Assembly: GCA_024235615.1 (NCBI GenBank)
Contig: JACKMB010000003.1
Coordinates: 186,001-250,000, forward strand
Origin: Thauera sp.
Lineage (GTDB): Bacteria > Pseudomonadota > Gammaproteobacteria > Burkholderiales > Rhodocyclaceae
Reading direction: 5' to 3'
DNA length: 64,000 nucleotides
Below the pieces are notes generated by a model. It worked only from the letters and a program-made list of their open reading frames with translations. It searched no databases and was not told where the DNA came from. Positions 2 through 11,551 of this stretch are shown here, in pieces; the first letter of the stretch is position 1; each line of letters starts with the position of its first letter. The translations under genes and the position numbers were made by a program.

Positions 2-595
2 TACGCCGCGCGCAGCTTCTATGCGCGCGTGGCCGAAGCCTTCGGCGCACGTCCTCCCTTCGCCAACATCGTCCGTTCCGAGGAACAACACATCGCGGTC
101 TTGCTCGGGCTGTGCGAGCGCTTCGGCATCCCGCGCCCGCTCGATCCCTTCCCGCAGGAAACCACCGTCGCACCGACCTGGCTAGCCAATTGCCAGCGTG
201 CGGTCAATGGCGAAATCGCCAACGTCCGCTTGTACGCGTACCTGCTGACCCAGGTGGCGGAGCCGGAAATCCGTCAGGTGTTCCAGCGCCTGCAGGCGGC
301 CTCGCTGCAGAACCACCTGCCCGCATTCCGTCAGGCCGCCGCCGCTGCGCAGGCGCAGGAGAACTACCACGCTGCCCACGGCATCCCGCCGCAGCAGGCC
401 TACGTGAGGCATGGGCCGCTGTCCGACTTTCTCGAGACGGCCTTCTCGCAACTCGGGCCCTACGCCGGGCCGCTCGGCCTCTTCAGTCCGCTTCTGCGCC
501 GTGCTCACCCCGCCATGCTGGCCGGCATGGTCACAGGGGGCGCAGGAGTCTATCTGTTGAAAGACAGGATCGGCCGTCATCGCAAGGAGAACTGA
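2..595 (+). CDS. Ferritin-like domain protein with C-terminal membrane anchor (5' partial)
   Basis: The reading frame is open from base 2, so the true start lies upstream of the window; the GTG at 29 is internal to conserved sequence. The visible 197 residues resemble the DUF2202-type ferritin-like four-helix family: an AxxFYxRVxEAFG helix, an SEEQH motif, and a later helix with NEI/YAYLL-type and NHLPAF sequence that would supply further carboxylate and histidine ligands. After the helical domain comes a linker and a glycine-rich hydrophobic stretch (AMLAGMVTGGAGVYLL) ending in basic residues, which looks like a single membrane anchor. The next gene starts 1 base after the stop, with an AAGGAG ribosome site inside the 3' end. 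The role inferred from the ATPase and Feo genes downstream is iron binding or oxidation at a membrane. Confidence 0.75.
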   Translation, partial: YAARSFYARVAEAFGARPPFANIVRSEEQHIAVLLGLCERFGIPRPLDPFPQETTVAPTWLANCQRAVNGEIANVRLYAYLLTQVAEPEIRQVFQRLQAASLQNHLPAFRQAAAAAQAQENYHAAHGIPPQQAYVRHGPLSDFLETAFSQLGPYAGPLGLFSPLLRRAHPAMLAGMVTGGAGVYLLKDRIGRHRKEN

Positions 596-596
596 C

Positions 597-923
597 ATGT
601 TCCCGCTCTTTCCCTTCGTCGCAGGGGTGCTGACCGGCGCCGTCGCCCTCCGCCTCATCAAGACCGACAAGACCAAGGCCGGGCTGGACAAGGCGCAGGA
701 CAAGCTGCGTGACGCCACGGTGTCCAGCCTGGAGGCCATCGAACACGCTTCGGCCCGCGCCCGCAAGCGCCTGACCGCTGCCGAGGCGGACGAAGATGGC
801 GAGTCGATGCCAGCGGAGGCCGCCGAGCCATCCGCACCCGCGGCGCGCAAGCGTGCGCCGCGTGCCGCCAAGGCCGCGCCCAAGGTGGACGCTGCCGCAG
901 GCAAGGAGGACGCCGAGTCATGA
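597..923 (+). CDS. Small membrane protein with basic Ala/Lys/Pro-rich tail
   Basis: This 108-residue protein starts with one hydrophobic segment (about residues 3-21, PFVAGVLTGAVALRLI), followed by a charged amphipathic helix (about 24-60) rich in Lys, Asp and Ala. It ends in a low-complexity tail of Ala, Pro, Arg and Lys resembling histone H1-like tails. The layout recalls YtxH-type proteins, but I do not assign it to a family. It begins 1 base after the ferritin-like gene and overlaps the next gene by 4 nt, so it is almost certainly translated in the same operon. A structural role at an iron-storing membrane compartment is inferred from the neighbours only. Confidence 0.7.
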   Translation: MFPLFPFVAGVLTGAVALRLIKTDKTKAGLDKAQDKLRDATVSSLEAIEHASARARKRLTAAEADEDGESMPAEAAEPSAPAARKRAPRAAKAAPKVDAAAGKEDAES

Positions 924-1204
924 GAACCCCGATCCTGCCCCATCTGCCCTCCGCGCCGCTTGTCACGGTGAGCCGCGCCGCGGGCGGCGGCTTCGTCCAG
1001 GGTTTCGTCGCCGCAGGCTGCGTGTCCGCTTTCCAGGATCACCCCGCGCCGGCGTGCGCAGTCGATCTGAAGCGGGTGCTGCGCCACGCCCTGCAGGGTG
1101 GCGCCGCGCTGGTCGCGACCGCGGCCGGTGCAGCCGGCGTGCTGCTGATCGAACGACTGCTGCGCGATTCCGCGAAAGCCGTACAGGAGAGGAAGGATGT
1201 CTAA
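920..1204 (+). CDS. Small hypothetical membrane protein
   Basis: This 94-residue protein is not recognised by sequence. Its N-terminal half is glycine- and alanine-rich (GGGFVQGFVAAG) with two cysteines. A hydrophobic alanine/glycine segment lies at about residues 59-80 (GGAALVATAAGAAGVLLI), followed by a short charged end. Small-residue spacing of the GxxxG type fits helix packing in a membrane. It overlaps the preceding gene by 4 nt (ATGA) and the following gene by 8 nt, tying it firmly to the operon with the P-type ATPase. No catalytic motif is visible. Confidence 0.65.
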   Translation: MRTPILPHLPSAPLVTVSRAAGGGFVQGFVAAGCVSAFQDHPAPACAVDLKRVLRHALQGGAALVATAAGAAGVLLIERLLRDSAKAVQERKDV

Positions 1205-1706
1205 GAAGCACAAGAAAGCCCATCGCCGTGGCGACCGCGGGATGCAGGGCGGGCAGGGCGCCGGCGGGCCGATGTACCAGGGCCAGTACGGGCAATATGG
1301 ACAATACGGCATGGGCGGCATGGGCGCGGACCCGGCTGCCGGCCCGTACGCGGCGGAGACTGCGTTCGCTCAGGGAGCCGGCGCGGGCTACGGTCCGGGC
1401 GCCGGGGCCTGGCCGGGCGGCGTTCAGGCCGGTCTTCAGGCCGGCCTCGGCGCGGCCGGCCTCGATGGTGGCCTGTTGCAGGGCATGCCGGCCTTCCTGC
1501 GCACGCGCAACAGCGAGCAGTTCCTGCTCGGCGCCCTGATCGGCGCTGCCGCGGCCTGGGTGCTGAGCGACGAGGAACTGCGCGGCAAGATCGTCAAGTC
1601 GGCGATGAAGCTTTATGCCGGCGTCGCCGGCGGCTTCGAGGAGATGAAGGAGCAGATGGCCGACATCCGCGCCGAGGTCGAAGCGGAGCAGCACGGAGAC
1701 GCATGA
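1197..1706 (+). CDS. Gly/Tyr/Gln low-complexity protein with one membrane segment
   Basis: The 169-residue product has three parts. Residues 1-13 are strongly basic (KKHKKAHRR). Residues about 15-100 are low-complexity Gly/Tyr/Gln/Ala with a GQYGQYGQYGMGGMG repeat. Residues about 108-125 form a hydrophobic segment (FLLGALIGAAAAWVL), followed by an amphipathic helix containing KIVKSAMKLY and an acidic end, as in YtxH-like proteins. The disordered tyrosine/glycine part is of the kind that can self-associate. The gene overlaps the one before by 8 nt and the ATPase gene by 4 nt. I infer a scaffold or assembly role; no enzyme motif is seen. Confidence 0.65.
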   Translation: MSKKHKKAHRRGDRGMQGGQGAGGPMYQGQYGQYGQYGMGGMGADPAAGPYAAETAFAQGAGAGYGPGAGAWPGGVQAGLQAGLGAAGLDGGLLQGMPAFLRTRNSEQFLLGALIGAAAAWVLSDEELRGKIVKSAMKLYAGVAGGFEEMKEQMADIRAEVEAEQHGDA

Positions 1707-3841
1707 TGAGCGGCGGCTGGGTGTCCGCGCTGGAGCCGGTTCATGCGACGCGTGGTCGCGTGCGCTGGCGCTACGCCTGCCGCCCGGGGGCGCCGGCCGA
1801 CCCACATGCGCTGGAGCGCGCGGTGGCGACGGTGGCCGGTGTGCGCAAGGCGCGGACCAATGCTGCCGCACGCGCGCTGGTGGTCGAGTTCGACGCCGCA
1901 CAAACCTCCGCGGAGCGCATCGCCCTCGACATCCTGCGCATGGTGCCCGCGCAAGCCCGCAAGGCGGGGGCACGCAACGGCGAGCCCAGCGTCGCGCCGG
2001 TCGCGCTGAGCGCGGCGACGCTGCTGGCGACGCGCTCGCTGCAGCCCGGCCTGCAGGCGCCGGTGGCCTTCGGCACGGCGATCCCGCTGCTCGGCGAGGC
2101 GGTGGACGACTTCCTCGAGAAAGGCGTCACCTCGCATGTCCTCGAGGCGATGGCGGTGGCGATCTCGATCGGGCGGCGCGATTACCTCGCCGCCAATACC
2201 ACCTCGTTTTTGCTCGCGCTCGGCGAGTACCTGGAGTCCTCGATCGAGCGCCGCTCCGACGACCTGCTCAAGCACCTGCTCAAGCCCGCGGTCGACGAGA
2301 TCTGGGTGGAGCGCGACGGTGCCGAGATCCAGATCGAGGCTGCGGAGGTCCGCGTCGGCGACACGGTGATCGCCGCCACCGGTTCCGTGATCGCGGTCGA
2401 CGGAACGGTGCTGGGTGGCGAGGCCATGGTCAACGAGGCCACCATGACCGGCGAGAGCGTGCCGGTGGCGCGCCGGCGTGGCGACGCGGTGCTGTCCGGC
2501 ACGCTGGTCCAGGAAGGCCGGCTACGCATCTATGCCGAGAAGGTCGGCGCGCAGGCCGCGGCAGCCCGCATCGCGGATTTCGTCGAGCAGTCGCTCGCGG
2601 TCAAGAGCACGACCCAGCTCGAGGCCTCGCGCATGGCCGATCGCCTGGTGCCGATGGTGCTGGGCCTGGCGGGTGCGACCTGGCTGGTGTCGCGCGACTG
2701 GGAACGCGTCGCGGCGGTGCTGCAGGCGGACTACTCCTGCGCGCTCAAGCTGTCGACCCCGGTCGCCTTCAAGTCGGCGATGTACGCCGCCGGCAAGTCG
2801 GGCATGCTGGTCAAGGGCGCCAAGGCGCTCGAGCGCCTGGCCGAGGCCGACACCTTCGTATTCGACAAGACCGGCACCCTGAGCACCGGCAAGCTCGAGG
2901 TGACCGACTCGGTCGCCTTCAAGCCGGGCTATTCACCCGAGGACCTGATCAACCTGGCGGCCTCGGTGGAGGAGCATTACTTCCACCCGCTGGCGCTCGC
3001 GGTGGTCGAGGCTTCCCGGCGCCTGGACAGCCCGCGCCACTTCGACCACAAGGAGGTCGAGTTCATCGTCGCCCATGGTGTGGCCAGCGTCATCGACGGC
3101 CGCCGCATCGTGGTCGGTTCGCGCCACTTCGTCGAGGACGACGAGGGCATTCCCGTGGCTGGGCATCGCGAGGTCATCGACCGGCTCCACCTCGAGGGCA
3201 AGACGCTGCTCTACATCGGCTTCGGTGGCGAGCTGCTCGGCGTGCTGGCGCTGCGCGACGGCCTGCGCGCCAACAGCGCGGCGACCATCCGCCGCCTGCG
3301 CCGACTCGGCGTGAAGCGCGTGCTGATGCTGACCGGAGACCATCCCGAGCGGGCACGCACGATGGCCGAGGAACTCGGCCTCGACGACTTCCACGCCGGC
3401 CTGCTGCCGCAGGACAAGGCGGACATCCTGCAGCGCCTGGCGGCGCAAGGTGCGCGCATCGCCTTCGTCGGCGACGGCGTCAATGATGCACCGGCGCTCA
3501 GCGGCGCCCACGTCGGCATCTCGATGCACAACGGCGCCGATGTCGCGCGGCTGGCGTCGGACCTTGCGCTGCTCGAGGACGACATCGCCCGCGTCGCCGA
3601 CGCCAAGGCGCTGGCGCTCGCCACGCGCCACCTGATCGACAGCAATTTCAAGCTCACGGTGGGGCTCAACACCACGATCCTGTCGGCCGCCGCGTTCGGC
3701 CTGCTGACCCCGATCGCGGCCTCCGCCCTGCACAACGGTACGACGATCGCGATCCTGCTGCGCGCGCTCGCCGGCGCCGGCCTGCCGCGCGATCGACGCA
3801 CGGGGCCGGCGGCCACCCGACGCGGCACGGTGTCCGCATGA
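1703..3841 (+). CDS. P1B-type metal-transporting ATPase, FezB-like
   Basis: The 712-residue protein has all P-type ATPase landmarks: TGES near residue 249, DKTGT with phosphorylated Asp388, an HP-containing nucleotide-domain motif (HYFHPLA), TGD, and GDGVNDAP near 590. The N-terminus has an HMA-like fold length (about residues 8-85) but no CxxC; instead it carries GRVRWRYACRPG (R19 to G29). The usual CPC membrane motif is replaced by SCALKLSTP (Cys346). Both traits fit the P1B-6 group, which includes FezB of ferrosome (iron-storage organelle) operons; that link is from family knowledge, and the substrate Fe(II) is inferred. ATG at 1703 overlaps the previous stop by 4 nt. A FeoA-like gene overlaps its end by 4 nt, coupling it to iron uptake. 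The alternative is another divalent-metal exporter. Confidence 0.85.
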   Translation: MMSGGWVSALEPVHATRGRVRWRYACRPGAPADPHALERAVATVAGVRKARTNAAARALVVEFDAAQTSAERIALDILRMVPAQARKAGARNGEPSVAPVALSAATLLATRSLQPGLQAPVAFGTAIPLLGEAVDDFLEKGVTSHVLEAMAVAISIGRRDYLAANTTSFLLALGEYLESSIERRSDDLLKHLLKPAVDEIWVERDGAEIQIEAAEVRVGDTVIAATGSVIAVDGTVLGGEAMVNEATMTGESVPVARRRGDAVLSGTLVQEGRLRIYAEKVGAQAAAARIADFVEQSLAVKSTTQLEASRMADRLVPMVLGLAGATWLVSRDWERVAAVLQADYSCALKLSTPVAFKSAMYAAGKSGMLVKGAKALERLAEADTFVFDKTGTLSTGKLEVTDSVAFKPGYSPEDLINLAASVEEHYFHPLALAVVEASRRLDSPRHFDHKEVEFIVAHGVASVIDGRRIVVGSRHFVEDDEGIPVAGHREVIDRLHLEGKTLLYIGFGGELLGVLALRDGLRANSAATIRRLRRLGVKRVLMLTGDHPERARTMAEELGLDDFHAGLLPQDKADILQRLAAQGARIAFVGDGVNDAPALSGAHVGISMHNGADVARLASDLALLEDDIARVADAKALALATRHLIDSNFKLTVGLNTTILSAAAFGLLTPIAASALHNGTTIAILLRALAGAGLPRDRRTGPAATRRGTVSA

Positions 3842-4089
3842 ACAGCCCGAACCGTTCCGATGCCTTTCCGCTGGCGATGGCTGCCGAGGGCGAAGCCGTC
3901 CGCGTCGTTGCGATCCTTGGCGGGTCGGGCATGGCGCTGCGCGTCGCCGAGCTCGGCCTGAACGTCGGCAGCGAGCTCGTGGTGCGCCAGCGCCAGGGTG
4001 GCGGCTTGGTGGTCGGGCGCGGCGAGACGCGCTTCGCGCTCGGCGGCGGCATGGCGCACAAGATCCTCGTGGCGCGGCTGCAGGGCTGA
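3838..4089 (+). CDS. feoA: FeoA-like protein coupled to the ATPase gene
   Basis: The 83-residue protein has the small SH3-like FeoA fold pattern: VRVVAILGG..., a LGLNVGSELVV strand pair, and the ending HKILVARL typical of FeoA (metal-independent, basic half). FeoA proteins assist FeoB in Fe(II) import at the inner membrane. The gene starts inside the end of the P-type ATPase gene (ATGA overlap), so translation is probably coupled. A second, more canonical FeoA follows 66 bases later after a hairpin. Because of its position this copy could serve the ATPase rather than FeoB; that is inference. Confidence 0.8.
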   Translation: MNSPNRSDAFPLAMAAEGEAVRVVAILGGSGMALRVAELGLNVGSELVVRQRQGGGLVVGRGETRFALGGGMAHKILVARLQG

Positions 4090-4109
4090 GCCGCGACGCT
4101 TTCGAACCG

Positions 4110-4131
4110 TGCCGGGCCGCTTGGCCCGGCA
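4110..4131 (+). terminator. Hairpin between the two feoA genes
   Basis: A perfect 9-bp inverted repeat (TGCCGGGCC / GGCCCGGCA) with loop GCTT lies 20 bases after the first feoA stop. It is followed only by ATTC, with no U-run, so it may be an attenuator or an mRNA-stabilising processing hairpin rather than a full terminator. It would allow different expression of the upstream storage-type genes and feoAB. Confidence 0.5.
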
Positions 4132-4155
4132 TTCACGTCAGTTGGAGTAGGTCGG

Positions 4156-4383
4156 ATGATGCTCAAGCAACTCGCGGTCGGTGACCGCGCGAAGGTCAGC
4201 GGCTTTGCCGAGGCGGGCGGTCCTTACCGTCGCAAGCTCCTGTCCATGGGGCTCACGCCGGGGGCCGAACTGGAGGTCGTGCGCGTGGCGCCGATGGGCG
4301 ACCCGGTGGAGATCCGCGTGCGCGGCTTCGCGCTCACCCTGCGCAAGGGCGAAGCCGATGCCCTGAACGTCGACAAGCTGTGA
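4156..4383 (+). CDS. feoA: Ferrous iron transport protein A
   Basis: This 75-residue protein is a canonical FeoA: LKQLAVGDRAKVSGF, RRKLLSMGLTPGAELEVVR, then the strand VEIRVRGFALTLRKGEA and a DxL-type ending. FeoA is a small cytoplasmic SH3-like partner of the FeoB permease in ferrous-iron uptake. A GGAG-containing ribosome site (TTGGAGTAGG) lies upstream of the start, and the feoB ATG overlaps its stop. It is a stand-alone protein, not fused to FeoB. Its neighbours place it in a feoA-feoA-feoB-feoC order. Confidence 0.93.
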   Translation: MMLKQLAVGDRAKVSGFAEAGGPYRRKLLSMGLTPGAELEVVRVAPMGDPVEIRVRGFALTLRKGEADALNVDKL

Positions 4384-6725
4384 TGAAGATCCCTGCAATG
4401 AAGAACGAACACCTCATCGCCCTGGTGGGCAACCCGAACTGCGGCAAGACCACCCTGTTCAACGCCCTCACCGGCTCGCGCCAGCGCGTGGGCAACTGGC
4501 CCGGCGTCACGGTCGAGAAGAAGAGCGGCGAATACCGTCACGACGGCCTGCGCTTCGAGGTCGTAGATCTGCCCGGCACCTACTCGCTGGACGTCGTCGA
4601 CCGCGAGGTCTCGCTCGACGAGAGCGTCGCGCGCGACTACGTCCATGGCAACGAGGCCGAGCTCGTCGTCAATATCGTCGATGCGGCCAACCTCGAGCGC
4701 AACCTGTACCTCACCACCCAGCTCGTCGAGATGCGGGTGCCGCTGCTGGTGGTGCTCAACATGGTCGACGTGGCCCAGGACAAGGGGCTCGCGATCGACG
4801 TCGAGGCGCTGGCGCACAGGCTCGGTTGCCCGGTGGTCCCGGTGGTGGCGTCCGAGGGGCGCGGCGTCGATGCGCTCAAGGCGGCAATCCTCGCCGCGGT
4901 GAAGGTGCGCAAGCCGGCCAGTGCCCGCGTGGACTACCAGGCGGCGCTCGAGCAGGCGGTCGCCGCGCTTGTGCCGCGGCTCGAGTCGGCCGCGCAGGCG
5001 GCGGGGACGTCGGCCCGCTGGCTGGCCGTGCGCCTGCTCGAGGGCGACGACCTCGCGCTAGGCGCCGCGGGCACCGACACCGCGGCCGAGGCGAAGCGGC
5101 TCGCGGGCGAGCTCGGCGACGACATCGACATCATGGTGGCGGACGCGCGCTACGGGCTTGCCAACCGCGTCGCCTCGGCCGCGGTCACGGTGAGCGGCCG
5201 CGCCGGTCGCGACCTCACCGACCGCATCGACCGTGTCGTGCTCAACCGGGCACTGGGCGTGCCGATCTTCCTGCTGATGATGTATCTGATGTTTCTGTTC
5301 ACCATCAGCATCGGCGGCGCCTTCATCGACTTCTTCGACCAGTTCGCCGGGGCGCTGCTGGTCGATGGCGTGGCCGCGGTGCTCACCGGCCTCGGTTCGC
5401 CCGAGTGGCTGACGGTGCTGCTGGCGCAGGGCATCGGCGGCGGCATCCAGGTCGTCGCCACCTTCATCCCGGTGGTCGGCTTCCTGTTCCTGTTCCTGTC
5501 GGTGCTGGAGGACTCGGGCTACATGGCGCGCGCGGCCTTCGTCATGGACCGTTTCATGCGTTGGGTGGGCCTGCCCGGCAAGTCCTTCGTGCCGCTGATC
5601 GTCGGTTTCGGCTGCAATGTGCCGGCGATCATGGCGACACGAACGCTCGAGCATCGTCGCGACCGCCTGATGACGATCGCGATGGCGCCCTTCATGTCCT
5701 GCGGCGCGCGTCTGCCAGTGTATGTGCTGTTTGCTGCCGCCTTCTTCCCGTCCGGGGCGCAGAACGTGGTGTTCGGGCTCTATCTGATCGGCATCGCGGT
5801 GGCGGTGATGACCGGCCTGGTGCTGCGCAACACCCTGCTCAAGGGCGAGCCGACCCCCTTCATCATGGAGCTGCCGCCCTACCACCTGCCCACGGTGCGG
5901 GGCGTGCTGCGCCATGCGTCGGAGCGCCTGATGGCCTTCATCGTGCGCGCCGGCCGGGTGATCGTGCCGATGGTGCTGGTGCTCAATGTGCTCAACTCGG
6001 TCGGCACCGACGGTAGCTACGGCAACGAGGACAGCGAGTCCTCGGTGCTCGCCGAGATCGGCCGCAGCATCACCCCGGCGTTCGCACCGATGGGCCTGAC
6101 CGAGGAGAACTGGCCGGCCGCGGTCGGGATCTTCACCGGCGTGCTCGCCAAGGAGGCGGTGGTCGGCACGCTGGATGCCGCCTACACCGCGCTTGCGGCC
6201 GAGGACGCCGGCGAGGCGGGCGCCGAGGAGGTCGCCTTCAGCCTTGCCGACAGCCTTGTCGCGGCCTTCGCCACCATCCCGGTGAACCTTGCCGATGCGC
6301 TCGGCGCGTGGGCGGACCCGATCGGGCTGGACGTCGGTGACCTCAGCGACCAGGCCGCGGTGGCCGAGGAGCAGGAAGTCTCGACCGGCACCTTCGGCGC
6401 CATGGCGGCGCGCTTCGACGGGGCGGCCGGCGCCTTCGCCTACCTGCTTTTCATCCTGCTCTACGCGCCATGCACCGCGGCGATCGCGGCGATCTACCAG
6501 GAGTCGGGTGCGCGCTGGGCCGCCTTCGTCACCGCATGGACCACCGGCCTGGGCTGGGGCGTGGCTACCGTGTATTACCAGGCCGCGACATGGGCACAGC
6601 ATCCGAGCTCGTCCTTCGGCTGGATCGCGGCGGTGGGCGCGTGCCTGTTGCTTGCACTGTGGGCGCTGCGACGCTATGGCGCGCGCGAGGCGGACGGCCG
6701 CCTGCCGCTGCCGCAGCAGGCCTGA
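4383..6725 (+). CDS. feoB: Ferrous iron transporter FeoB
   Basis: The 780-residue inner-membrane Fe(II) transporter has an N-terminal G-protein domain with G1 GNPNCGKTT (residues 16-24), G3 DLPG and G4 NMVD. A helical GDI region follows, then a membrane part from about residue 290 with two Gate-type repeats (GFGCNVPAIMATRTL and MAPFMSCGARLPVY, conserved cysteines present). Length is normal for FeoB. ATG at 4383 overlaps the feoA stop; a GTG at 4380 and an ATG at 4398 are alternatives with no clear ribosome site to separate them. A stretch of about 100 residues near 590-680 (acidic, Ala-rich) precedes the last membrane segments. feoC follows 10 bases later. Confidence 0.97.
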   Translation: MKIPAMKNEHLIALVGNPNCGKTTLFNALTGSRQRVGNWPGVTVEKKSGEYRHDGLRFEVVDLPGTYSLDVVDREVSLDESVARDYVHGNEAELVVNIVDAANLERNLYLTTQLVEMRVPLLVVLNMVDVAQDKGLAIDVEALAHRLGCPVVPVVASEGRGVDALKAAILAAVKVRKPASARVDYQAALEQAVAALVPRLESAAQAAGTSARWLAVRLLEGDDLALGAAGTDTAAEAKRLAGELGDDIDIMVADARYGLANRVASAAVTVSGRAGRDLTDRIDRVVLNRALGVPIFLLMMYLMFLFTISIGGAFIDFFDQFAGALLVDGVAAVLTGLGSPEWLTVLLAQGIGGGIQVVATFIPVVGFLFLFLSVLEDSGYMARAAFVMDRFMRWVGLPGKSFVPLIVGFGCNVPAIMATRTLEHRRDRLMTIAMAPFMSCGARLPVYVLFAAAFFPSGAQNVVFGLYLIGIAVAVMTGLVLRNTLLKGEPTPFIMELPPYHLPTVRGVLRHASERLMAFIVRAGRVIVPMVLVLNVLNSVGTDGSYGNEDSESSVLAEIGRSITPAFAPMGLTEENWPAAVGIFTGVLAKEAVVGTLDAAYTALAAEDAGEAGAEEVAFSLADSLVAAFATIPVNLADALGAWADPIGLDVGDLSDQAAVAEEQEVSTGTFGAMAARFDGAAGAFAYLLFILLYAPCTAAIAAIYQESGARWAAFVTAWTTGLGWGVATVYYQAATWAQHPSSSFGWIAAVGACLLLALWALRRYGAREADGRLPLPQQA

Positions 6726-6735
6726 GGCGGCGGCG

Positions 6736-6972
6736 ATGATCCTGTCCCGCCTGAGCGACTACCTGCGCGAGCGCCGCCGCGCCAACCTGGCCGACATGGC
6801 GATCGGCCTCGACAGCTCGGTCTCGGCGCTCGAGCCCATGCTCGCCACGCTCGAACGCAAGGGCCGTGTGCGGCGCGTCCCCGCAGCCGCGGGCTGCGGC
6901 ACGAGCTGCTGCAAGTGCGACCCGGCGAGCACCGTCGTCTTCGAGTGGGCCGGCGACGCGCCGGCCTCCTGA
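6736..6972 (+). CDS. feoC: FeoC-like winged-helix protein
   Basis: The 78-residue product is too small to stand out by length, but its sequence is that of FeoC: LSRLSDYLRERRRANLADMA, then ALEPMLATLERKGRVRRV (winged-helix pattern), followed by a cysteine cluster CGTSCCKC at about residues 54-61. In FeoC such cysteines can hold an iron-sulphur cluster and the protein stabilises or regulates FeoB. It starts 10 bases after the feoB stop and is followed by another plus-strand gene 19 bases on, so it belongs to the feo operon. Confidence 0.88.
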   Translation: MILSRLSDYLRERRRANLADMAIGLDSSVSALEPMLATLERKGRVRRVPAAAGCGTSCCKCDPASTVVFEWAGDAPAS

Positions 6973-7580: not shown

Positions 7581-8006
7581 TCAGCGCAGCAAGGCCTTGC
7601 GATGCAGCCCGAGGTGCACCCCGAGACAGGCGACGAAGACGCCGCCGGTGACTGCATGCCAGCGCTTGTTGCCGGTCGCCGCCAGCGCCAGCGATGCGCC
7701 CAGGCTGCCGAGCATGCCGATCTTGGCGGCGCGGTTGACACGGTTGTGGATCGAGCGCCTTGCCTTTCGCGGGGCGGCGAGTGCCGCATCCAAGGCCTGT
7801 TCGATCCGTTGCTCAAGCTTGGCGGGGCTTACCTCGCCGTGGTCAAAAAAAACCACGATACTTCCCGCGACAAGATTAGGGCGCAGTTCTCGAACACCCT
7901 CGAGTGGCGCAAGTTCCTTATGTACGCGGGAGAGGCAGTCCCGTCCGCGCAGCGCAGGATCCTTTACGCGGATGCGACCCGGGGAAGATGAGGCGATTCT
8001 GGTCAT
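7581..8006 (-). CDS. Small membrane protein with cysteine-free HMA-like domain
   Basis: The start is ATG 8006, preceded by GAGGA at a good distance, giving 141 residues. Residues about 4-80 form an HMA-like beta-alpha domain without CxxC but with SSPGRIRVKDPALRG (R11 to G21), the same Arg-x9-Gly pattern as in the N-terminus of the P-type ATPase at 1703. A basic linker is followed by two hydrophobic segments (about 98-112 and 120-136, AKIGMLGSLGASLALAA and VTGGVFVACLGVHLGL). Such small HMA-plus-two-helix proteins occur in ferrosome-type loci; the link is inferred. The gene contains a run of eight T at 7846-7853 and its 5' half looks less GC-rich than its neighbours. It ends convergently against the M14-like gene. 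Confidence 0.75.
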   Translation of the reverse strand: MTRIASSSPGRIRVKDPALRGRDCLSRVHKELAPLEGVRELRPNLVAGSIVVFFDHGEVSPAKLEQRIEQALDAALAAPRKARRSIHNRVNRAAKIGMLGSLGASLALAATGNKRWHAVTGGVFVACLGVHLGLHRKALLR

Positions 8007-8141
8007 GGGCAGGTTCCTCAACGGGTTGCTTCGGTTGCGGTCGAATCGAGGCCGAAGAGTGGAGAGTTTGACACCAATCCCTGGTCGACCTGCCGATGGT
8101 TGCTTCCCGCAGAGCCCCCAGGGGAGTCCGAGGGTGAAAGA

Positions 8142-9320
8142 TCATGCTTTGACCACCGTCCAGTGGTTGTCTGGTGCGATCTCCACCGGCCAGCGCAGCA
8201 ATACCGGGTCACGTTGCGGGTGCCAGAAGCCGAGGCCACGCGGCGAGCCGATCAGGCTGGCATGAGTGCCGTCGAGTGCGACCTCGGCGAGTGCGCCTGC
8301 CTTGTTGAGTTCGGCGATGACCTCCAGGCGCTCGGGCGCCGCCGGATGCCAGCGCGTCACCCGGTTACTGCGTTCGGCGGATAGGTAGAAACCTCCGTCC
8401 ATGCCGATGGCGATGTCGCCGCAGTAACCTGCGCCGACGGTCTCGCGACTGGGGATCTGCAGCGTCTCTCCGTTCCACACCGCCAGGATGGGCGCTGCGG
8501 CGCGCTCGGCCGCGTCGTCGTGCTCGGCCTGCAGCGCCACGCCGACCAGCGTGCGCCCGCCCGCGACCGGCACCGCGCCGAGCGCAAGATGGCGCACACT
8601 CAGGCGCTTGTCCTTCAGCCACCACTGGCCGAGGCGTTCGCCACTCTGCGGATCGAGTCGCACCAGCGAGGAGTCCATGCGGTCGAGGTCGCGCTTGCGG
8701 TCACCGGCTGCGCGCAGGATGCCGCCGTTGGCCACCACCAGCTTGCCCTCGGCGTCGAACAGCAGCTCGTGCGGCTCGATGCCGCGGGTGGGGAACTCCG
8801 CTTCCTTGCGCAGACTGTCGCGCCGGCGCACGGCGATCCAGCCTTGGGTGGAGCCGGTCTCGGATTCGGTGGTGTACAGCCACTCGCCCGCGGGGTCGAA
8901 GACCGCGTGACCGTTGAGAGTGCGCCCGCTCTTCTCGTCCTCGAGCACCTGGCGGGCGAGGACTTCGCCGTCGGCGGCGCAGCGCATCAGCCAGGGGCCG
9001 GGGCGGTTGGCGCAAACCAGGAAGCCGCCATCGCGGTCGGGCAGCAGGCCGTGGACGCGATCCGGGACGGCGATGGCGGTCTCGATGCGGGCGACGCCTT
9101 GCTGCCAGTCGGGCACCAGGATACCGACGTAGTCGGTGGTGCCTTCGGCCTTTGCGCCGCGCGCGGCGCCGTCGCGGCCGAGGTCATGAAGGCTGCGCCA
9201 CGCGGCGATCAGGCGGATTTCGGGAAACTCACCGGGTGTGGTCGCGGCGAGCAGGTGGCGTGGCAGCAGGGCGAGCGAGAGGCCGCCGCCCAGCGTGCGC
9301 AGGAAGTCGCGTTTGTTCAT
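8142..9320 (-). CDS. DUF1513 periplasmic protein
   Basis: The 392-residue product starts with a Tat-like signal (NKRDFLRTLGGGLSLALLP). The remainder is a beta-propeller-like DUF1513 protein, with repeated blocks such as VHGLLPDRDGGFLVCANRPG, EPHELLFDAEGKLVVANGG and a GYCGDIAIGMDGGFYLSAERSNRV segment. DUF1513 genes are usually found beside imelysin-type (IrpA) and dihaem genes in periplasmic iron-uptake operons; here those partners are absent and the gene sits 59 bases downstream of a siderophore receptor. A role in handling ferric complexes in the periplasm is inferred from that context. Confidence 0.85.
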   Translation of the reverse strand: MNKRDFLRTLGGGLSLALLPRHLLAATTPGEFPEIRLIAAWRSLHDLGRDGAARGAKAEGTTDYVGILVPDWQQGVARIETAIAVPDRVHGLLPDRDGGFLVCANRPGPWLMRCAADGEVLARQVLEDEKSGRTLNGHAVFDPAGEWLYTTESETGSTQGWIAVRRRDSLRKEAEFPTRGIEPHELLFDAEGKLVVANGGILRAAGDRKRDLDRMDSSLVRLDPQSGERLGQWWLKDKRLSVRHLALGAVPVAGGRTLVGVALQAEHDDAAERAAAPILAVWNGETLQIPSRETVGAGYCGDIAIGMDGGFYLSAERSNRVTRWHPAAPERLEVIAELNKAGALAEVALDGTHASLIGSPRGLGFWHPQRDPVLLRWPVEIAPDNHWTVVKA

Positions 9321-9379
9321 CGGGGTGTTCCAGTGGAAACGACGGACCCCGCTGGGGCCCGTCGATCGATGCGCTCGGA

Positions 9380-11551
9380 TCAGAACTTGTATTCGCCGGT
9401 CAGGATGATCGCGCGGCCGGTGCCGGGGATGGCGAAGCCGCCCTGGTCATACACGGCGTCGTAGTACACACGGTCGAAGATGTTCTTGACGTTCAGGCGC
9501 GCGGCCCAGCTCTTCTGCTCATACGCGAGCATCGCATCCCAGCGCGCGTAGCCGGGCGCGGCGTTGGGCGTGAACTTGCCGTCGATGAAGTTGCTGTTCG
9601 CGTTGGCGGCCGTGGGCACGTAGGCGTAGCGATCGCTCTTGGCTTCGACGCCGCCGCCGATCTTCCAGCCGCCGCCGAGCGCATAGGTTGACCACAGGTT
9701 GAAGGTCAGCTTGGGCGTGTTGCGCGGGCGCTGACCCTCGAGGCGCGGGTCCGCGCCGGGTGCGGCCTCGAGGATCTCCGCGTCCATCACCGAGAAGCCG
9801 CTGAACACCTCCCAGTTCGGCGTCACGCGGCCGGCGACCTCCAGTTCCAGGCCGTCGGTGCGGCGCTTCCTGGTCAGGATCGCGGCGCTCGACTCGAGGT
9901 CGGTATTGCGCTCCCACTCCTTGTCGGCACGGTACAGTGCTGCACGCAGGGCGAGATCGCCTTCCATCAGCATCCACTTGGCGCCGAGCTCGGTGACCTT
10001 GCTACGCTCGGCCGGGAAGCTTCCGCCGGAGAGCTGGTAGAGGTCGGCGGTCGGGCTGAACGAGTCGCTGTAGCTGATGTAGTAGTGGGTGTACTCGGTC
10101 GGATGCCAGGACAGGCCGGTGCGCAGGCTGGTCTCGCTGAAGTCGAGCTGCGGCGAGTTCAGGCTGGAGTATTCGGCGTCGAGCGAGTCGTGGCGTGCCC
10201 CCAGGGTCAGCTTCCAGTCCGGGATGAACTCGATGGTGTCCTGGGCGTAGAAGGCCAGGGTGTCGCCCTCGTAGGTGATCGCCGGCGCGGAGGTGAAGGC
10301 GCCCGGACGATAGAAGCGACCCGCGCCCGGGTCCAGGTCCTGCAGGCTGCGGCGGCTGGAGTCTTCCTTCAGGTACTCGACGCCGGCGAGCAGCTCGTGC
10401 TTCATGCCGAACAGGTCGGCACGTGCGGTGAGGTCGGATTGCAGGGTCAGGTTCTCGGTTTCGGTCTGGCGCACCTTGGGGCTACCGGTGCTGCCGTCGA
10501 AGCTCGGTGCTGCGGTCCGGTTGGGCGCCTGCGCCCAGTACACGCGCTCGTAGCTCGCGTGGCGCAACTGGGTGCGGATTTCGGCCTGCGAGGACAGCTT
10601 ATGCTGGTGCACCAGCGAGGTCATCGAGGTGTCGCTGTCGTCGAAGGTGTTGTTGGTGCCCCAGAAGGTGTCGGCGGAGAAGTCCTTCGTCGGGCGCTTG
10701 GTGGCTGGATCGAAGGAGATGCCGTAATCGGGGTTGTCGCGCGTCTTCAGGTAGTAATGATTGAAGGTGAATTCGTTGTCCGTAAACAGGCCGGTGACCA
10801 GGCTGAGGCCGACGCCCTCGCGATGGATTTCGGGTTCGGCCCCGTCCGCGGGGTTGCTGCGCCAGCTGCCCTCGTCGCGCTTCATCACGTTCAGTCGCAC
10901 CGCGGTGCTGTCGCCCAGTTCCTTGTTGAAGTCGCCGGTCACTTCGCGGTAATCGTCGATGCCGACGCTGCCGGTGATCCTGCCGCGGTTGCCGAGCAGC
11001 GGCGTCTTGGTGACCTGGTTGATTACGCCGCCAGCCTGGCCGCGTCCGAACAGCATGGCGGCCGAGCCACGCAGTACGTCGATCTGCTCGAGGTTGAAGG
11101 TCTCGCGGTTGTACTGTGCGGTGTCGCGGATGCCGTCGAGATACATGTCTCCGAAGGTGTAGAAGCCGCGCAGGTTCATGTTGTCGCCCGAGCGGCCGCC
11201 TTCCGCAGCGTTGAACGATAGGCCGGAGACGTTGCGCAGTGCTTCCTTCAGACTGCCGACCTGCTGCTCCTCCATCAACGTGTTGGTGACTGTGGTGACC
11301 GCCTGCGGGATATCGTGCGGGTCCTGCAGGACCTTGCCGACGCGCGTCGCAGTGGCACGGTGGCCGTCCTGCGGAGCAGCGTCTTCGGCAGCGTTGACGG
11401 TGACCGTCGGCAGTGTCTTGGCCGAGGAGGGAGTGGCTTGTGCCTGCGCGCCTGCCGACAGGACGGCGAGCATGATCGCGCTCAGGGGCAGCAGGGGGCG
11501 AGTGGGGGCGTGCGCGGGCCGCGCCGCGCCGGAACGAACGGCAGCTTTCAT
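9380..11551 (-). CDS. TonB-dependent siderophore receptor
   Basis: The 723-residue outer-membrane receptor has a signal peptide ending near AQA, a TonB-box-like LPTVTVNA, then a plug domain (DIPQAVTTVT, LRNVSGLSFNA, NLRGF, LEQIDVLRGSAAMLFGRG, GGVINQVTK) and a 22-strand barrel ending in an aromatic residue (GEYKF). The plug motifs fit the catecholate/hydroxamate siderophore receptors (Fiu/FhuE-like); the ligand cannot be told. A Fur-like operator lies about 100-135 bases upstream. DUF1513 follows on the same strand. Energy would come from the TonB-ExbB-ExbD set at 18.6-20.7 kb. Confidence 0.95.
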   Translation of the reverse strand: MKAAVRSGAARPAHAPTRPLLPLSAIMLAVLSAGAQAQATPSSAKTLPTVTVNAAEDAAPQDGHRATATRVGKVLQDPHDIPQAVTTVTNTLMEEQQVGSLKEALRNVSGLSFNAAEGGRSGDNMNLRGFYTFGDMYLDGIRDTAQYNRETFNLEQIDVLRGSAAMLFGRGQAGGVINQVTKTPLLGNRGRITGSVGIDDYREVTGDFNKELGDSTAVRLNVMKRDEGSWRSNPADGAEPEIHREGVGLSLVTGLFTDNEFTFNHYYLKTRDNPDYGISFDPATKRPTKDFSADTFWGTNNTFDDSDTSMTSLVHQHKLSSQAEIRTQLRHASYERVYWAQAPNRTAAPSFDGSTGSPKVRQTETENLTLQSDLTARADLFGMKHELLAGVEYLKEDSSRRSLQDLDPGAGRFYRPGAFTSAPAITYEGDTLAFYAQDTIEFIPDWKLTLGARHDSLDAEYSSLNSPQLDFSETSLRTGLSWHPTEYTHYYISYSDSFSPTADLYQLSGGSFPAERSKVTELGAKWMLMEGDLALRAALYRADKEWERNTDLESSAAILTRKRRTDGLELEVAGRVTPNWEVFSGFSVMDAEILEAAPGADPRLEGQRPRNTPKLTFNLWSTYALGGGWKIGGGVEAKSDRYAYVPTAANANSNFIDGKFTPNAAPGYARWDAMLAYEQKSWAARLNVKNIFDRVYYDAVYDQGGFAIPGTGRAIILTGEYKF

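Follow-up and report, generated by a model that had tools for sequence, protein, structure and literature searches.

The operon and its genes

The stretch of DNA examined here (the window) comprises 64,000 nucleotides of Thauera sp. (assembly GCA_024235615.1, contig JACKMB010000003.1, positions 186,001 to 250,000) and opens inside a closely packed operon on the + strand, for which the initial annotation had proposed a ferrosome (fez-like) operon fused to the Feo iron import system. Window base 1 is L005:10001, L005 being a stretch of the same genome that includes the upstream flank, and this flank together with the spacing of the open reading frames (ORFs) places the start of the operon upstream of the window edge. 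The gene order is RxR/HMA_2-like protein, ferritin-like protein, three small membrane proteins (sA, sB and sC), P1B ATPase, FeoA-like, FeoA, FeoB and FeoC. The first gene (L005:9575-9916, +) encodes an HMA/HMA_2-like protein of 113 amino acids (aa) and overlaps by 17 bases the start of the ferritin-like gene, which runs on the + strand from L005:9900 to occupy 2..595 of the window and encodes a predicted four-helix protein of 231 aa with a C-terminal hydrophobic segment. One base separates it from the gene for sA (597..923, +; 108 aa), which has an N-terminal transmembrane (TM) segment and a charged, Ala-rich tail, with sA overlapping sB (920..1204, +; 94 aa) by 4 nucleotides (nt), sB overlapping sC (1197..1706, +; 169 aa) by 8 nt and sC overlapping the adjoining ATPase gene (1703..3841, +; 712 aa) by 4 nt. 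Both sA and sB have profile counterparts in related loci, and sC combines a Gly/Tyr/Gln-rich N-terminal part, a TM segment and a YtxH/DUF5132-like helix.

The ATPase gene in turn overlaps by 4 nt a feoA-like gene (3838..4089, +; 83 aa; Pfam FeoA, 52 bits) that lies 66 bases ahead of feoA (4156..4383, +; 75 aa; Pfam FeoA, 80 bits). FeoB (4383..6725, +; 780 aa) carries the Pfam FeoB domains and scores 834 bits against the NCBIfam FeoB model, its probable start being the ATG at 4383 where the ORF list has the GTG at 4380 instead, and feoC (6736..6972, +; 78 aa; Pfam FeoC, 74.7 bits) stands last. Re-examination of the ORF coordinates and the Pfam matches bears out the 1-base gap, the 4-8 nt overlaps and the run from the ATPase gene into feoA-feoB-feoC that had been described in the initial annotation. 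Since the gene spacing is so tight, we infer a single transcript. Outside the operon on the opposite strand stands the gene of a FezC-like protein of 141 aa (7581..8006, -; read from an internal ATG of the ORF 7581-8021), which has an HMA_2 domain and a His-bearing hairpin (KRWHAVTGGVFVACLGVHLGLHRK).

Selection was estimated against L041, a relative from the same GTDB family whose ATPase is 84% identical. The pN/pS ratio was below 1 in 11/11 genes compared, ranging from 0.13 (sC) to 0.76 (FeoC), with 0.31 for the ferritin-like gene, 0.25 for sA and 0.50 for sB; for the small proteins the ratios cover only the alignable codons (59/108 in sA, 66/94 in sB and 93/169 in sC). Because all 11 ratios are below 1 and the gene order is conserved, chance ORFs are ruled out.

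The P1B-6 ATPase and its partner proteins

The ATPase matches the Pfam E1-E2_ATPase and Hydrolase families and has an RxR motif in its N-terminal domain, DYSCALK in TM4, DKTGT, and ALHNGTT in TM6. In an alignment of 20 relatives R19 and R21 of the RxR motif, C346, K349, H677 and N678 were invariant. TM4 fits the pattern [SA]Cxx[KR], drawn from the sequences compared here, and has no CPC, and no CxxC was seen in the N-domain of the pump, in the HMA protein or in the FezC-like protein. The locus set contained 112 loci with an ATPase, 48 of P1B-6 type and 64 with other P1B pumps (L040 and L066, counted as two of the 48, are pieces of one cluster), and 60 rows drawn from it were placed in a tree built by a quick method with SH-aLRT support only and flagged by the tool for long branches and uneven residue composition. 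The pump falls in a P1B-6 clade (SH-aLRT 100) whose 34 rows carry the [SA]C motif, so that the P1B-6-like label of the initial annotation, which grouping outside P1B-6 was to have overturned, stands. The LHN pattern was also matched by 31/34 rows of this clade, which holds in addition pumps of Lachnospiraceae, Faecalibacterium, methanogens and Rhodobacter capsulatus; three pumps with both CPC and LHN join outside the clade (97), and other CPC, CPH and SPC pumps lie further out. The window's pump groups with pumps that have DUF6110 partners, such as that of the Blautia locus L072, whose sC-type partner scores 100.5 bits with Pfam DUF6110. Judged by sequence the ATPase is a P1B-6 pump of the FezB type, and the TM4 and TM6 motifs together with the tree rule out a plain copper/zinc exporter. 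In PMC9374683 a TM6 HN motif, which this pump has, and DUF6110 proteins are tied to P1B-6 pumps, and a table in PMC7558416 gives Fe(II) as the P1B-6 substrate, which would make Fe(II) the substrate here.

The initial annotation could not match the small proteins to named Fez proteins. Counterparts beside P1B-6 pumps were now found with profiles, and for sC a link to DUF6110 was found that is only indirect. At E 1 neither sA nor sB has a Pfam match, and the only Pfam matches of sC, to YtxH and DUF5132, are below the curated cutoffs. With iterated profiles an sC-type match was present in 41/48 P1B-6 loci. The sC set matched the partner protein of four f20 genomes in profile-profile comparison (prob 92, E 7.5e-8), as did this partner protein the Firmicutes DUF6110 set (prob 90, E 1.8e-7), and because the connection runs through this intermediate f20 set, FezA-like is a reasonable but indirect name for sC. 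In hhalign sA and sC are related (prob 95).

The FezC-like protein matches Pfam HMA_2 with 35.4 bits, above the cutoff, and 13 HMA_2-plus-hairpin proteins including the window's aligned over 136 columns (prob 99.4, E 6.7e-22) with those that six f20 genomes carry next to their P1B-6 pumps. In an AlphaFold model the HMA part alone is confident and the hairpin is not resolved. FezC is described in PMC10979944 as a DUF4405-like haem-b cytochrome, and by sequence the window's protein is likely a candidate haem protein resembling this ferrosome cytochrome. Genes for a DUF1513 protein and a TonB-dependent receptor (window 8142-11551, -) precede the FezC-like gene on its strand, and the three are perhaps in one transcript.

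The ferritin-like protein and the distribution of the cluster

The ferritin-like protein has DUF2202 and rubrerythrin Pfam matches, all below the curated cutoffs, and its gammaproteobacterial homologue in L067 passes the DUF2202 cutoff. The AF2 model of this homologue, made with a 2-row alignment, has four confident helices in a four-helix bundle (pLDDT 84-91 in the helical core blocks, 63 in one loop block, whole-chain mean 67), and with the model as query Foldseek returned only two MJ0754 structures at E <= 0.001, ferritin folds in the PDB appearing at weaker E-values. The model of the homologue, as distinct from the window protein, thus has a predicted four-helix ferritin-like fold. This fold is shared with DUF2202/MJ0754-type proteins, from which the window protein differs in its C-terminal hydrophobic segment, its operon with a pump and the lack of a helix-4 Glu. 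The canonical diiron pattern comprises six ligands, E, ExxH, E and ExxH. With E34, E61, H64, E105 and H139 the window protein has candidates for 5/6 of them, the absent one being the Glu that this pattern would place in helix 4. All five candidates are kept in L041, in L067 and in Arcobacter, L038 has none and L039 one, and the remaining relatives are mixed, and because the site is degenerate in several relatives the word ferritin may overstate the protein.

Pump presence was scored at E <= 1e-100 with the window's own genome included in each count. On this basis the ATPase was found in 14/150 sampled genomes of the same GTDB family, in 11/250 sampled from the order and in 8/349 sampled from the phylum, and sA, sB and sC were all present in 13/14 of the family clusters on the profile map, the exception being L052. 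The window's own genome has no second close copy of the ATPase, remaining matches being <= 37% identical. Genome contigs were scanned through the best 80 pump matches and plasmids among the 5000 records listed, such that the distribution is not exhaustive.

A ferritin-like gene is present in 10/48 P1B-6 loci, nine of them in the window's order and one in a gammaproteobacterial metagenome-assembled genome, and, among the matches listed, on two Arcobacter plasmids. The 150 family genomes gave six ferritin-like matches, of which the five strong ones all lie within the cluster and among the 14 pump-bearing genomes, and the remaining one, a weak match containing a stop (E 2.9e-4), comes from a genome in which no pump passed the threshold applied. 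When presence of the gene was mapped on a tree of 32 pump rows, 5 changes were required vs 9.2 with shuffled labels, the label count omitting L028, where the contig begins within the cluster. The five changes would be explained by a single gain at the root of a 20-row subclade (support 94, short of the tool's star) and four later losses, of which one falls in L042, a genome of the same genus as the window, and equally well by a loss and a regain inside that subclade. This clustered distribution, reaching to Arcobacter plasmids, backs the suggestion of the initial annotation that the ferritin-like member may set this operon apart as a type of its own.

Among related clusters, plasmid p3 of Azospirillum brasilense (L153) carries genes for a FezC-like protein (HMA2 plus hairpin), an HMA protein, sA-like, sB-like and YtxH proteins and the ATPase, that is the six genes in the order inferred for the window's family but with neither ferritin nor Feo genes; its pump is 63% identical, and the likeness of two hypothetical proteins to sA and sB was judged by reading. 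The two Arcobacter plasmids (L154, L157) carry genes for an HMA-like protein, a DUF2202 ferritin-like protein, two small proteins, a YtxH protein and the pump, and the last gene of L157 encodes a separate protein, a hairpin that matches DUF4405 weakly. Within ~8 kb after the cluster, L154 has genes for TonB receptors, a ChaN lipoprotein and a Tn3-family transposase. A Cereibacter azotoformans plasmid of conjugative type has a FeoA family gene (L155:4182-4424) immediately upstream of its P1B-6 cluster and in divergent orientation to it.

The order pump-feoA-like-feoA-feoB-feoC recurs in L041, and in L066 the pump, feoA-like and feoA genes are followed by feoB, in which the contig ends. FeoB lies <= 8 kb from the pump in 10/48 P1B-6 loci vs 0/64 other P1B loci, which is an association and not a test, as the loci lack independence and the control loci are from different organisms. 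At ~3.1-5.3 kb upstream of the window a second FeoB, shorter than the first (654 aa; L005:4933-6897, -), is encoded beside a partner gene for a weakly FeoA-like protein (88 aa; L005:4654-4920, -; below cutoff), and with this second FeoB so close to the operon the region contains two Feo systems. The second feoB has as its neighbour a gene of the ribosomal protein S4 family (L005:7000-7749, +; domains S4 N-terminal and S4), possibly an alternative RpsD paralogue, and genes for a DUF6746 protein and an outer-membrane beta-barrel-like protein (below cutoff) at L005:8298-9542 (+) precede the operon. Eight FNR-like boxes within 2 mismatches were found in L005 vs 1.67 expected. Two have a single mismatch, and one of these is an intergenic site at L005:8174 upstream of the DUF6746 gene and ~1.4 kb before the HMA gene of the operon. 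The signal is weak because a narrower pattern was matched only in L005 and L040 among 9 loci.

Iron storage, iron efflux or another metal

Ferrosomes are membrane-bound iron-storage compartments of bacteria. The pump of the Rhodopseudomonas palustris type of fez operon is the P1B-6 ATPase FezB, Shewanella putrefaciens has a six-gene fez operon and the fez gene set of Desulfovibrio magneticus is fezABC. In R. palustris CGA009 six fez genes give rise to ferrosomes (RPA2333-2338; PMC12016538), FezC of D. magneticus is mentioned in PMC10979944, and fezAB of Clostridioides difficile is CD630_05910-05920 (PMC11651100). The fez operon of R. palustris and the operon in the window both bring a P1B-6 ATPase and several small proteins into one cluster, and it is suggestive that the six genes of R. 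palustris, known here by description only, equal in number those on A. brasilense p3. Compared by description with R. palustris and Shewanella, the window differs in its extra ferritin-like gene, the downstream feoA-like-feoA-feoB-feoC genes and the placing of the FezC-like gene on the opposite strand. With D. magneticus fezABC and C. difficile fezAB it shares a FezB-type pump with a small membrane partner and has a candidate counterpart of the DUF4405-like FezC, going beyond these, again by description, in its additional small proteins, RxR/HMA_2 protein, ferritin-like protein and Feo genes. In gene content the cluster is that of a fez operon, and therefore would represent a fez-type operon with two additions, the ferritin-like gene and the joining to feo. 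The locus is thus probably a fez-type operon joined to the Feo importer that stores Fe(II) in vesicles. The fez-like operon fused to Feo of the initial annotation is in this respect supported by the P1B-6 clade, by the counterparts of the small proteins and by the FezC-like gene, which the initial annotation had missed.

The protein families named suggest how such a system would work. FeoB with FeoA, the FeoA-like protein and FeoC would import Fe(II) to the cytoplasm, and the P1B-6 ATPase, which sA, sB, sC and the RxR/HMA_2 protein would keep within a membrane assembly, would move Fe(II) from the cytosol into the lumen of a vesicle for storage. The ferritin-like protein, presumably anchored by its hydrophobic segment and perhaps with its domain on the side from which the pump is supplied, would at the same membrane bind or oxidise iron en route to the pump or buffer it, and the FezC-like haem protein would switch stored iron between its Fe(III) and Fe(II) states so that it can be released.

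Several observations weigh against iron storage by a fez-type operon. The assignment is by family and gene order, the proven Fez systems of D. magneticus, R. palustris, S. putrefaciens and C. difficile entering by description only. The FezC-like protein scores 19.7 bits with DUF4405, below the cutoff of 26.7, and the His-bearing hairpin pattern occurs at only 20/48 P1B-6 loci, having been sought in HMA profile matches near the pump and, in L067, in any nearby ORF. Compared directly, the sC set and the Firmicutes DUF6110 set gave no significant match (E 0.04, prob 0.7), nor did sA and the f20 partner protein (prob 3). Over 11 sequences the candidate ligands of the ferritin-like protein are retained in 6 (E34), 7 (E61), 6 (H64), 8 (E105) and 7 (H139), and the gene is absent from L042, a genome of the window's own genus. 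Direct pump-feo joining was found in three genomes only, and no site within 3 mismatches of the Fur consensus was found in L005.

The same genes could instead form an efflux platform like that of mycobacterial PacL/CtpC, in which an inner-membrane pump clustered by small TM proteins would export excess Fe(II) without an organelle and the pairing with Feo would balance uptake against toxicity. These platforms, as described in PMC9374683, likewise pair a P1B pump that has a TM6 HN motif with a small TM protein, and differ from the window in the CPC of TM4, a DUF1490 partner with a metal-binding His motif and a role in zinc resistance. That the three CPC+LHN pumps group with P1B-6 (97) speaks for such a platform, as does the build of sA and sC, with one TM segment and a charged helix as PacL is described (PMC9374683), but TM4 of the window's pump is SCALK and not CPC, P1B-6 forms a clade of its own, no DUF1490 match was found at E 1, the three small proteins have no terminal His-rich motif like DLHDHDH of PacL1, and the HMA_2 and FezC-like proteins with several small proteins fit ferrosome-type clusters better than a two-gene pair; on balance efflux is rather improbable. 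It is very improbable that the pump and small proteins handle another metal (Zn, Co, Ni or Mn) beside an ordinary, merely adjacent Feo operon. The pump does score above the cutoffs of the NCBIfam generic heavy-metal and cadmium-family models and direct joining to Feo is rare, yet the ATPase gene overlaps by 4 nt a FeoA-like gene found after the pump in L041 and L066 too, FeoB is commoner near P1B-6 than near other P1B pumps, and the Arcobacter and Cereibacter clusters lie beside TonB receptor and ChaN lipoprotein genes and beside a FeoA gene, respectively. Within the fez-type reading the ferritin-like protein may itself act in structure or recruitment, as a scaffold made of a decayed ferritin fold, rather than as an iron oxidase or store. 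The variation of the candidate ligands, each kept by 6-8 of the 11 sequences, favours this, and the retention of all five in the window protein, L041, L067 and Arcobacter argues against it, leaving the scaffold a serious possibility of somewhat less than even weight.

A fez-type operon that stores iron thus remains the preferred reading, and systems of this kind are already known, the interest here lying in the combination. A literature search found no publication linking ferrosomes with FeoB and ferritin and nothing pairing any of DUF2202, ferritin-like, DUF6110, P1B-6, YtxH and HMA2 domain, its reach stopping short of two primary ferrosome papers so that absence from print does not follow. 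We know of no settled account of how ferrosomes receive and handle iron. An importer, a ferritin-like protein, a P1B-6 pump and a likely haem protein in one locus would offer a testable path from uptake to storage, and the ferritin-like member allows one to ask whether protein-based and membrane-based iron storage cooperate, with relatives that lack its gene, including a member of the window's own genus, providing a natural comparison of clusters with and without it. We tentatively propose a ferrosome subtype in which a membrane-anchored ferritin-like protein is a standing part, some operons being fused to Feo such that import, hand-over and storage would share one transcript, the subtype having perhaps been gained once, carried on plasmids in Arcobacter and lost repeatedly. 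If true, this subtype would merge the two bacterial ways of storing iron, within a protein fold and within a lipid-bounded compartment.

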